Shown: positions 11,102-22,302 of the stretch, piece after piece
How the letters are laid out: every line of letters begins with the position of its first letter
How positions within the stretch are numbered: the stretch's first letter is position 1
IMG/VR virus record: IMGVR_UViG_3300032288_001159
Coordinates: 1 to 22,302 of that record
Strand: one strand, 5' to 3'
DNA from: a virus
Length of the DNA: 22,302 nt
Translations under genes and position numbers: made by a program
Notes under the pieces: model-generated
The model's database searches: none
What the model saw: the letters and a program-made list of their open reading frames with translations, nothing else
Told to the model about the DNA's origin: nothing

Positions 11102-11368
11102 ATGCGGGAGCCACATCAGTTTGAAGCTCCCGCGTGTGCTGAGGTTGGTGGGGATTTTTGGTTTCCTGAAAAGGGTAAAGATGCCATCGGACAAGTTCAA
11201 ATCAATACTGCAAAATCAATTTGCAAAGGTTGTCCACATCAATCTGAATGTGCTGAGTGGGGCATCATTAATGAAGCTCACGGCATTTGGGGCGGTCTTG
11301 TAAGTAGAGAACGTTCAAAGATTCGTAGGCGTAGAGGAATTACATTAAAGGAGAGCGACGTTGCTTGA
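11102..11368 (+). CDS. WhiB-family Fe-S transcriptional regulator
   Basis: An 88-aa WhiB-like protein: Cys12, then CKGCPHQSEC (Cys41, Cys44, Cys50) as the four [4Fe-4S] ligands, GIWGGL at 61-66 as the sigma-contacting turn, and a basic C-terminus RERSKIRRRRG for DNA contact. The family occurs only in Actinobacteria and their phages and binds domain 4 of the primary sigma factor. The mycobacteriophage TM4 homologue inhibits host WhiB2, blocks septation and gives superinfection exclusion; a similar takeover role is likely here. This is the best single host marker in the window. The start is 4 nt after the preceding stop, and the end overlaps the ATPase gene by 8 nt. Confidence 0.95.
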   Translation: MREPHQFEAPACAEVGGDFWFPEKGKDAIGQVQINTAKSICKGCPHQSECAEWGIINEAHGIWGGLVSRERSKIRRRRGITLKESDVA

Positions 11369-16088: not shown

Positions 16089-16482
16089 CAAAGGACGAGT
16101 GGATCATAATGTTACAGACTTTGCAGCATATGGGCTTTCAGATCTTAGAAGCCAATTACCAGAGCGAACAGGTGTTGATAAGACCAACACCAACAAGATA
16201 ACTGATGAGTTTGTTACCGATGTATGGCGCATCTTGGATGCAGCAGGCAATCTTCTCATTAAGAAACACCACGACTACGGTCCTAAGAACATTAGCCTTA
16301 GTCCAGGTGGACCACTTAATGGTTTGCGTGTACGTATGTGGGATAAGGTCGCCCGAATTAATAACCTTATTGATTCTAACGTTAACCCTAGCAATGAATC
16401 TTTGCGTGATAGTTTCATTGACCTTCTAAACTACTCAGCTATTGCAATGATGGTGCTAGATGGAACGTGGCCCGAAGAGTGA
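16081..16482 (+). CDS. MazG-like / DUF1599-type nucleotide-associated protein
   Basis: GTG 16081 (8 nt after GGAGG) gives 133 aa; ATG 16075 and TTG 16066 are too close to that site. LIKKHHDYGPKNI (59-71), GGPLNGLRVRMWDKVARI (76-93) and ESLRDSFIDLLNYSAIAMMVLDG (106-128) form the all-alpha pattern of the DUF1599 / nucleotide-modification-associated family, with acidic residues (Asp65, Asp88, Glu106, Asp110, Asp114) suited to metal binding as in MazG-type NTP pyrophosphohydrolases. In phages such proteins clean or shape the nucleotide pool, or accompany DNA modification. The start overlaps the primase stop by 8 nt. Confidence 0.78.
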   Translation: MNDKGRVDHNVTDFAAYGLSDLRSQLPERTGVDKTNTNKITDEFVTDVWRILDAAGNLLIKKHHDYGPKNISLSPGGPLNGLRVRMWDKVARINNLIDSNVNPSNESLRDSFIDLLNYSAIAMMVLDGTWPEE

Positions 16483-17111
16483 AAGACTTACATCCAACCA
16501 TCTATGACTTAGTTCCACCTATGGCTTACAGTATCTTTAATAGATTCAAAGTCTGGGTAGAGAAAGAAGATATCCAACAGGAACTCTATCAATGGGCCAG
16601 TACACGCACTGATTACATCAACGAGCAGTTCAGTGAAACAGATCCAGAGAAACTCAAGCACAATGAGCAACGTCTAGCGTGGCAGATGAGGCGTGCAGCA
16701 GAGCGATACGCACGCAAAGAGAAAGCTACTAAGTCTGGCTATCAGATAACAGATGAAGCCTATTACGAGAACGCTACGCTGGCTCAGCTTCTACCCTTTG
16801 TTATTGCCTCAGTCATTGACGGTACTGTATTAGAACAGGCACAAGAGATGCTTAAAGATGGGCAACCACGTGGCTCATCATCTCCAGCAGAAGGCGGCAA
16901 CTTGCTTGCTACCCTGCTCGATATTAAAAAAGGTTTTAATAAGATAGATATTAAAGATCAGACTATCCTGCGTCTGCGCTATCACGAGAACTTTACCCTT
17001 GCACAGATAGCACATACCTTAAAGTGTGCTACATCTACTGCTGACCGTAGATGTACCCAAGCATTGCGTCGTTTACAGAATGAACTCGGTGGAGAATCTC
17101 CCTTCCGATGA
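16479..17111 (+). CDS. Sigma-factor-like protein with region-4 helix-turn-helix
   Basis: GTG 16479 overlaps the previous stop as GTGA (210 aa); an upstream in-frame GTG at 16467 is the alternative. The N-terminal ~110 residues are helical (DIQQELYQWASTRTDYINEQ, LKHNEQRLAWQMRRAAERYA), with a Ser/Gly-rich linker around 130-142. The end KIDIKDQTILRLRYHENFTLAQIAHTLKCATSTADRRCTQALRRLQ is a clear sigma-70 region 4 with helix-turn-helix. A classical region 2 is not evident. It could redirect host RNA polymerase to phage promoters, such as the extended -10 sites in this window; this link is inference. Confidence 0.75.
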   Translation: MKDLHPTIYDLVPPMAYSIFNRFKVWVEKEDIQQELYQWASTRTDYINEQFSETDPEKLKHNEQRLAWQMRRAAERYARKEKATKSGYQITDEAYYENATLAQLLPFVIASVIDGTVLEQAQEMLKDGQPRGSSSPAEGGNLLATLLDIKKGFNKIDIKDQTILRLRYHENFTLAQIAHTLKCATSTADRRCTQALRRLQNELGGESPFR

Positions 17112-21317: not shown

Positions 21318-21562
21318 TACTTAACCATCTCTTTCAATAGAGCTTTATATGCGCGGGCATTCTCGCCGCGATAGCTTGCCGCATTAGCTAGAAAGTACAT
21401 CACAACACTCTTAGCGCTATCGGCGTAATAGTTATCCTCTACGCTGTTTATACTCTTCATTGCATTCAAGTAATCGGCGGCGTATGGGCTCACATTCTTC
21501 CAATCTTTAGCAATTGCGTAGGCAATCTCGGAGACCGTAATTGTGTTAGCTGCTGTATTCAT
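21317..21562 (-). CDS. Conserved phage protein, first gene of the leftward operon
   Basis: An 81-aa helical protein: NTAANTITVSEIAYAIAKDW and YAADYLNAMKSINSVEDNYY, ADSAKSVVMYFLANAASYRG, ENARAYKALLKEMVK. The pattern 'DSA..VV.YFL.NA..yRG..AR..K.ELK' is common in hypothetical proteins of actinophages. The ATG has AAAGGAATTACAGTA upstream. It is the promoter-proximal gene, about 47 nt from a predicted TSS, so it should be among the first expressed. Confidence 0.72.
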   Translation of the reverse strand: MNTAANTITVSEIAYAIAKDWKNVSPYAADYLNAMKSINSVEDNYYADSAKSVVMYFLANAASYRGENARAYKALLKEMVK

Positions 21563-21817: not shown

Positions 21818-22138
21818 CGGGCGGTTATTAATATTTAGGGGGCGCCGGAGATGCTGCCAACCCCGCAGCAATTCCTAACAGTAAAGCGCACAACAGGGCC
21901 GCAGCAGCAGCGCAACAGGGGGCGAGGGGGGCCGGTCTACGGTGGAAAGCGGCGAACAGACGACCCCACCTTGTTAACTTTTGTCCAAGGTAGTGTTATG
22001 TACCCATTATAAATATTTTTCCTAAAGTGAAAGTGATCTATTAAAACCGCAGGTCAGAATAGGGTGTACTGTGAGTTGTAACACAGTAATAAAGTTTTTT
22101 GGTGGAAAACGGGAAATGCAGTATTTTTCCTGCCTTCT
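21818..22138. other. Non-coding, AT-rich segment between repeat array and structured region
   Basis: No supported gene. 21840-21965 is GC-rich with short CAGC and G runs. 21990-22110 is AT-rich. It includes a minus-strand promoter candidate (22006-22033), a perfect hairpin TACTGTG/CACAGTA (22067-22073 with 22082-22088), and a small stem GGAAA/TTTCC (22112-22116 with 22126-22130). Confidence 0.6.
22006..22033 (-). promoter_or_regulatory. Candidate upstream promoter reading leftward
   Basis: Minus strand: perfect TATAAT (22006-22011), 16-nt spacer, CTTTCA (22028-22033, three of six matches to TTGACA). Transcription would start near 21999 and run through the AGCT array, giving a leader of about 440 nt before the first gene at 21562. 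Confidence 0.45.
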
Positions 22139-22263
22139 ATACAGTAGGGGCTGAAAGTTTGGAAAGCCCCGTATGCTGGCTGGTTGGCCTCTTGCGAGGC
22201 CCCCTAGGGCTGAGCACTGACTTACCCCTCAGTCGCTGAGACTCCTTCGGGAGTCTACTGTAT
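22139..22263 (+). ncRNA. Candidate multibranched structured RNA
   Basis: A 9-bp perfect closing stem, ATACAGTAG (22139-22147) with CTACTGTAT (22255-22263), encloses four stem-loops: GGGCT/AGCCC (22148-22152 with 22165-22169), GGCCTC-TTGC-GAGGCC (22186-22201), CTGAG/CTCAG (22210-22214 with 22228-22232) and ACTCC-TTCG-GGAGT (22241-22254). The last has the very stable C(UUCG)G tetraloop on the plus strand and abuts the closing stem, and the first abuts it on the other side, allowing stacking. No ORF is present. The strand is favoured as plus because of UUCG, but on the minus strand the second loop is GCAA (GNRA), so this is not certain. Confidence 0.5.
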
Positions 22264-22291
22264 CCCGCAGTCGCGGTTTTTAGTCGGGATA
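22261..22291. other. Hairpin next to the structured region
   Basis: TATCCCG (22261-22267) pairs with CGGGATA (22285-22291) over 7 bp, loop 17 nt with a TTTTT run. Its first 3 nt are shared with the closing stem of the upstream structure, so the two compete or stack. It runs close to the window edge. Confidence 0.55.
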
Positions 22292-22302
22292 GCTCTATTA
22301 AA

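Follow-up and report, generated by a model that had tools for sequence, protein, structure and literature searches.

A probable structured leader RNA just upstream of the large terminase gene in phages that probably infect freshwater actinobacteria

Dense stem-loops in the non-coding DNA at the end of a viral contig raise the question of whether they form an RNA, mark a site in the DNA or arose by chance. Such stem-loops occur near the right end of the window analyzed here, which is the complete 22,302-base IMG/VR record IMGVR_UViG_3300032288_001159; it is classed as linear, as is often the case for fragments. The left part of the window codes for tail and structural-type proteins, replication-type genes are also present, and a scan of the window for tRNA and tmRNA genes detected none. 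A leftward block of small genes ends at position 21562 and is followed, at the fragment's end, by the non-coding DNA with the stem-loops. Relatives were retrieved via an 81-aa leftward protein; they had 68–82% DNA identity across the element and extended past the end of the window. In these relatives the next gene, ∼70–100 nt beyond the window end on the + strand, was that of the terminase large subunit (TerL; phrog_38, E 7.5e-65), and the gene after it resembled a portal gene by eye. The stem-loop region is a leader upstream of TerL and co-oriented with it, and since the window is truncated just before TerL, this position was not visible from the window alone. The viruses that carry the element are probably phages of freshwater, Nanopelagicales-type actinobacteria and form a large and very common group.

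A TerL-profile scan based on protein similarity yielded 80 loci, 79 of which had upstream DNA, and a nucleotide profile placed the element upstream of TerL in all 79 (E < 1e-10). Likewise, all 177 elements that were matched by a regular expression and had enough downstream DNA were located on the strand of TerL, 205 to ∼815 nt before the gene; three larger distances resulted from mis-hits of the pattern inside other sequence. The linkage survived the insertion of a tRNA-Arg gene or an ORF between element and TerL. A co-oriented tRNA-Arg(ACG) gene occupied this spot in L056 (537–612), L057 (477–550), L073 (2412–2485), L077 (504–577) and L079 (2115–2188), and a tRNA-like sequence was seen there in L068, L069 and L080, with no call by ARAGORN for L068 and L069, the two that were scanned. 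Between element and TerL, L072, L078 and other loci also contained direct repeats (AACCAGGTATAAA- or GCCGGTATAAA-type) in two copies ∼25–30 nt apart.

Orientation and position before the same operon were constant, as is expected of a leader that acts in cis. The sole exception was L122 (7880–8289), a near full-length contig in which the TerL-proximal side was joined inverted to the upstream side at the contig end; this probably reflects a fold-back during assembly of the hyperconserved element. At least 14 loci, including L121, L122, L136, L146, L170, L180, L181, L225 and L236, had a contig end no more than ∼100 nt from the core, and the window itself terminates 173 nt past the core. These unusually frequent breaks are probably caused by near-identity among co-occurring strains.

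The first-pass annotation, which was made from the window alone, had proposed a closed five-way junction in which a 9-bp stem encloses four local hairpins. The complementary segments were all found in the window, and the 9-bp match between 22139–22147 and 22255–22263 was exact. However, the closing stem was confined to the window and was present in none of the 50 aligned relatives. Counted over 51 relatives, 35.7% of the stem's cells were paired, compared to 34.9% after shuffling, and most of its pairs were broken in 47–49 of the 51. The 5′ side was near-invariant and the 3′ side varied without compensation (e.g., AAGCCCGA), which is the pattern that the annotation itself had named as evidence against the structure. 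A perfect 9-bp stem with a span of 60–200 nt also appeared in 3.9% of dinucleotide-shuffled copies, and the minimum free energy fold of the region did not contain the junction. The stem is only mildly unusual and the junction is a chance pairing in one sequence.

The local hairpins themselves were in clear excess: six perfect hairpins of 6 bp were observed against 0.66 expected (P = 0.002). Those at 22147–22170, 22186–22215, 22240–22255 and 22265–22276 were conserved as structures, while CTGAG/CTCAG (22211–22232), another hairpin of the first-pass annotation, was not retained in relatives and the one at 22067–22088 is better read as a dyad in the DNA. A different long-range stem, the 3′-terminal GACCU/AGGUC pairing of the most frequent class, received no support from a contingency test.

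The conserved unit was a leader of ∼150 bases just before TerL, and its pattern of variation suggests that it apparently functions at the RNA level. Its local hairpins H1, H2 (with tandem G-A pairs), H3 and H4 covaried among relatives, with the compensatory helix changes that characterize structured RNAs. The helices were tested singly, as RNAalifold gave a weak result on the whole alignment, in which MAFFT misaligned the alternative classes of H1 and H2. H1 (22147–22170, + strand) directly follows the AGTA-GGG block and pairs GGGGCT with AGCCCC around a 12-nt loop. In relatives it has the form GGG-GA-GYAAARC...GYTTTRC-GA-CCC, and the largest divergent class consists of GGG, a tandem GA, the arms GTAAAAC/GTTTTAC, GCAAAGC/GCTTTGC, GCGAATGC/GCATTCGC or GCAAATGC/GCATTTGC, a further GA and CC(C). 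Among 28 distinct sequences, 92.9% of the H1 cells were paired, a count in which two misaligned sequences with a one-base longer stem were scored as broken, compared to 36–51% with the partner slid. The double changes in this set included UA/CG 17:9 and AU/GC 15:9; two pairs were altered on both sides in 18 cells, against 0 of 500 shuffles. A third class of H1 had C-G and T-A alleles in a ratio of 27 to 22 without any mixed state and with 11 switches on the TerL tree, and 7 allele switches were counted in another class. Some of these switches may reflect the exchange of entire hairpins by recombination, and not all of them need be compensatory mutations.

The H2 region (22180–22215, + strand) contains GGCCTC(TTGC)GAGGCC and an overlapping alternative, GC-GA-GGCCC(CCTA)GGGCT-GA-GC, with tandem G-A pairs. 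The overlapping hairpin recurred in relatives as N-GA-GGCC(CCTA)GGCC-GA-N and covaried: the apical pair took the forms GC, TA and CG, and the outer pair was GC in 10, GU in 8, AU in 4 and AC in 0. In divergent members the outer arms were long and compensated (e.g., AAAGCC/GGCTTT and AACCTCG/CGAGGTT). H3 (22240–22255, + strand) is the hairpin GACTCC(UUCG)GGAGTC, for which compensated variants were found; close relatives had GGCTCC/GGAGCC or GGCTCC/GGAGCT, and elsewhere a shifted hairpin, CGGGC(GYYAA)GCCCG, took its place. H4 (22265–22276, + strand), CCGC(AGTC)GCGG, is followed directly by TTTTT (22277–22281), and its compensated stems included GTCGTGC/GCACGAC, GTTGTGC/GCACAAC, GTGGTGC/GCACCAC and GCGGTGC/GCACCGC. 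The terminator-like arrangement of H4 directly followed by T3–T5 was present in 41 of 144 unique elements; this test did not detect it in the others, and 23 elements had a different 3′ end. A universal attenuator is therefore unlikely.

The hairpins were accompanied by blocks without variation, chief among them the single-stranded block TTACCCCTCA (22222–22231, + strand), which was near-invariant in the alignment, and the 3′ block AGTCGGGATAGCTCTAT (22282–22298, + strand; consensus AGTNGGGATAGNTCTAT). Two hypervariable segments were observed inside near-invariant blocks, one after H1 (∼22172–22184) and one in the loop of the CGGGAAAT-N7-ATTTCC dyad (∼22118–22124). The same few alleles of these segments recurred in many combinations, which suggests recombination or variable partners.

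Folding energies distinguished the two strands poorly. The z-scores of the region were modest (−2.4 on the + strand and −3.2 on the − strand). In 44 of 51 sequences the summed folding energy was better on the + strand, on which transcription would proceed into TerL, but the mean z-scores of both strands were weak (−1.5 and −1.2). Consensus folding with RNAalifold did not separate the strands, the − strand being slightly lower in energy on the mixed alignment. As the energies are similar, the assignment to the + strand depends mainly on the one-sided changes in H2, where an outer G-U pair occurred without A-C, and on the tandem G-A pairs, which favor an RNA of the + strand. The dyad formed upstream by CGGGAAAT and ATTTCCTG had A-C on the + strand and behaved as DNA. 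The region is read as a composite, with control sites in the DNA upstream and RNA hairpins downstream.

Directly upstream of the hairpins, a conserved promoter-like block (22110–22146, + strand) consists of the DNA dyad CGGGAAAT-N7-ATTTTTCCTGCC followed by CTTCTATACAGTA, which reads TATATATAGTA in most relatives. A scan for sigma-70 promoters found none, and the predicted promoter is not canonical; the 5′ end of the RNA would probably lie near 22146–22150. Further upstream, the sequence TGTGAGTTGTAACACA (22070–22085) is a CRP/FNR-type, operator-like dyad, TGTGA-N6-ACACA, and corresponds to the outer hairpin of the first-pass annotation. The exact form TGTGA-N6-TCACA was present in 79 of 151 upstream regions and a relaxed form in 130 of 151 (0 and 2, respectively, in shuffles), and the dyad kept one of two constant spacings relative to the core (−45 or −60/61). 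The motif AAAACCGCAGGTCAG (22043–22057; also given as CCGCAGGTCAG), ∼15 bp in length, occurred at a fixed distance in opposite orientations (the other one reading CTGACCTGCGGTTTT), in 14 and 68 of the 151 upstream regions, the orientation depending on the lineage; in L005, L008 and L072 it was located ∼66 nt upstream of the core. Such behavior would be expected if the segment had undergone inversion or were the target of an orientation-independent protein, and the motif is probably a protein site at the DNA level. Other conserved upstream blocks were GACCCC..TTGTTAAC..ACCCATTATAAATATTTTTCCTAAAG (21960–22027) and AAATAAATAT..CCTAAA. DnaA boxes were found in 43 of the 151 upstream regions. Clusters of them (TTATCCACA) were located upstream of the element in L005, L072 and L142 and downstream in L009, L062 and L106, and may mark an origin of replication within this intergenic region. 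Two products of the window are candidate regulators of the late promoter: a WhiB protein (11102–11368, + strand; Pfam 54.6 bits) and one that contains sigma-70 region 4 (16467–17111, + strand).

Each reading frame was kept open in at most 20 of 132 elements, in agreement with the earlier statement that the region contains no protein gene, and a coding explanation was rejected. A search of the window and 20 related loci against 4227 Rfam families gave no match at the gathering cut-off. At permissive E-values the best weak matches were to the unrelated families sau-13, sR46 and RAGATH-32 (E 1–2.2). The suggested kinship with GOLLD, ROOL, OLE and HEARO found no support, as their models were not matched at gathering level, although these are also structured RNAs, some of them phage-borne. 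DNA searches of phage, plasmid and bacterial genome collections returned no meaningful homologue, and a literature search of open-licence papers found no earlier description. The proposal of a new phage RNA holds in that the element is conserved, covarying, non-coding and without an Rfam match, but the element does not stand alone as an ornate RNA amid empty intergenic DNA. It is apparently a real and undescribed RNA family of a recognizable kind that is linked to TerL in every checkable locus.

Five Streptomyces phages of the Beephvirinae (WRightOn, FlowerPower, Immanuel3, Manuel and Stella), with TerL proteins ∼42% identical to those of the freshwater group, had the same order of blocks within the ∼650–750 bp before TerL: TTGTTAAC, ATAAATA, TGTGA-N6-TCACA, TATATATA-GGGG and hairpins. 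Aligning their hairpins with the freshwater element was not possible, nor did its nucleotide profile give a match in these phages. E7 and F5 are isolated Planktophila phages (PMC10202952). The cultured E7 retains only part of the upstream DNA block, without recognizable RNA hairpins.

Taken together, we consider it likely that the region encodes a structured 5′ leader RNA at the start of the late operon, on the + strand. A late promoter would lie at ∼22110–22146, probably with a CRP-type activator and perhaps also with the WhiB and sigma-like proteins of the phage, and a + strand transcript would begin near 22146–22150. Its first ∼150 nt would fold into the chain of hairpins H1–H4 with the conserved linkers and continue into TerL. 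The leader would then most likely act in cis on the nascent transcript, either as a put-like antitermination or anti-pausing element or, alternatively, as a late-leader checkpoint with pausing or termination at H4-U(4–5), enabling polymerase to cross the late operon of ∼20 kb with its packaging and structural genes. The flexible distance to TerL and the tolerated insertion of genes make it less plausible that the leader controls TerL translation directly. Its constant orientation and its location early in a long operon are compatible with an action on polymerase during elongation. The terminator-like H4 is restricted to a minority of members, and the checkpoint form is thus not universal. We put forward a role in antitermination or attenuation in cis as a tentative possibility, somewhat short of an even chance.

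Known phage leaders offer partial parallels. The put RNA, a nascent-RNA antiterminator that counters pausing and termination by binding RNA polymerase, belongs to the early operons of the lambdoid phage HK022 and is much smaller than the freshwater leader. It is similarly structured, located early in a phage transcript before a long operon, cis-acting and tolerant of position (PMC9378689). No sequence relation between the two is apparent, and the freshwater leader is a candidate antiterminator only. The late leader of phage lambda, or 6S RNA, is transcribed from pR′, contains tR′ and covers ∼150–200 nt at the start of the late operon. The freshwater leader likewise contains hairpins, one of which is terminator-like in some members and precedes the packaging genes; it differs in that a T run directly follows the hairpin in only the 41 unique members given above. 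Non-coding RNAs near genome ends are also known from actinobacteriophages. In Rhodococcus phage WC1, nc_1 is located between genes 1 and 2, tracks the late-transcribed left arm and exceeds all other phage transcripts in abundance from 30 min onward (PMC10986025). The abundant Pleft RNA of mycobacteriophages L5 and D29 is also encoded near the genome end (PMC5712189), although the L5 RNA, unlike the freshwater leader, is early and leftward.

The stem-loops could instead be a site in the DNA, either a pac or cos packaging start or a replication origin next to TerL, with hairpins that are protein-binding dyads or single-strand structures. The position beside TerL, the many dyads, the motifs at fixed spacing, the invertible 15-bp motif and the DnaA boxes would all suit such a site, as would the roughly equal folding of both strands and the similar non-coding block that the Beephvirinae keep at the left end of their deposited genomes. 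The outer pair of H2, with G-U but no A-C, and the tandem G-A pairs nevertheless point to single-stranded + RNA. Contig ends were scattered around the element without a single cut position, which fits assembly breaks in hyperconserved DNA and leaves a fixed cos-type end unsupported. As the motifs lie mostly upstream of the hairpins, the DNA and RNA readings could each hold for neighboring segments; as an explanation of the hairpins, we consider a DNA site unlikely. Chance stem-loops in non-functional intergenic DNA would agree with the modest folding z-scores of the window and the chance-like 9-bp stem. This explanation is already refuted by blocks that stayed near-invariant while the surrounding non-coding DNA diverged, by the compensated stems and by the complete linkage to TerL, and its probability is negligible.

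Other readings accept an RNA and assign it a different function. A free small RNA of ∼130–160 nt, made late, ended at H4 or by processing and acting in trans, would be next to TerL only through promoter sharing. The resemblance of H4-U4–5 to a weak intrinsic terminator in those 41 elements, the flexible distance to TerL and the abundant, stable non-coding RNAs of L5 and D29 (PMC5712189) and WC1 (PMC10986025) are in line with this idea. We nevertheless regard it as improbable, given that the element was never found apart from TerL and that most members have no terminator-like 3′ end. Linkage exclusively to TerL could also indicate a packaging RNA that works with the terminase, as pRNA does with the motor of phi29. 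The element matched no Rfam family at the cut-off, and so no known pRNA. The phi29-like phages also have a different, small packaging system, and this function is very improbable.

A cis-acting leader of the late operon, as preferred here, would provide a concrete and testable control point for late genes, as it is present at every TerL examined in the group. The broader proposal, a new universal class of structured RNA in freshwater actinobacterial phages that combines put-like control of the late operon with a CRP-type promoter switch and has analogous leaders in Streptomyces phages, is rather doubtful at present. The phages concerned are numerous in lakes, where some of the most common freshwater bacteria are their prey, and in fragmented metagenomes the element can serve as a sequence tag that marks TerL. 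The Planktophila phages E7 and F5 and the Streptomyces Beephvirinae offer culturable systems for the study of related leaders. The leader would broaden the narrow set of phage leader RNAs beyond the enterobacterial models.
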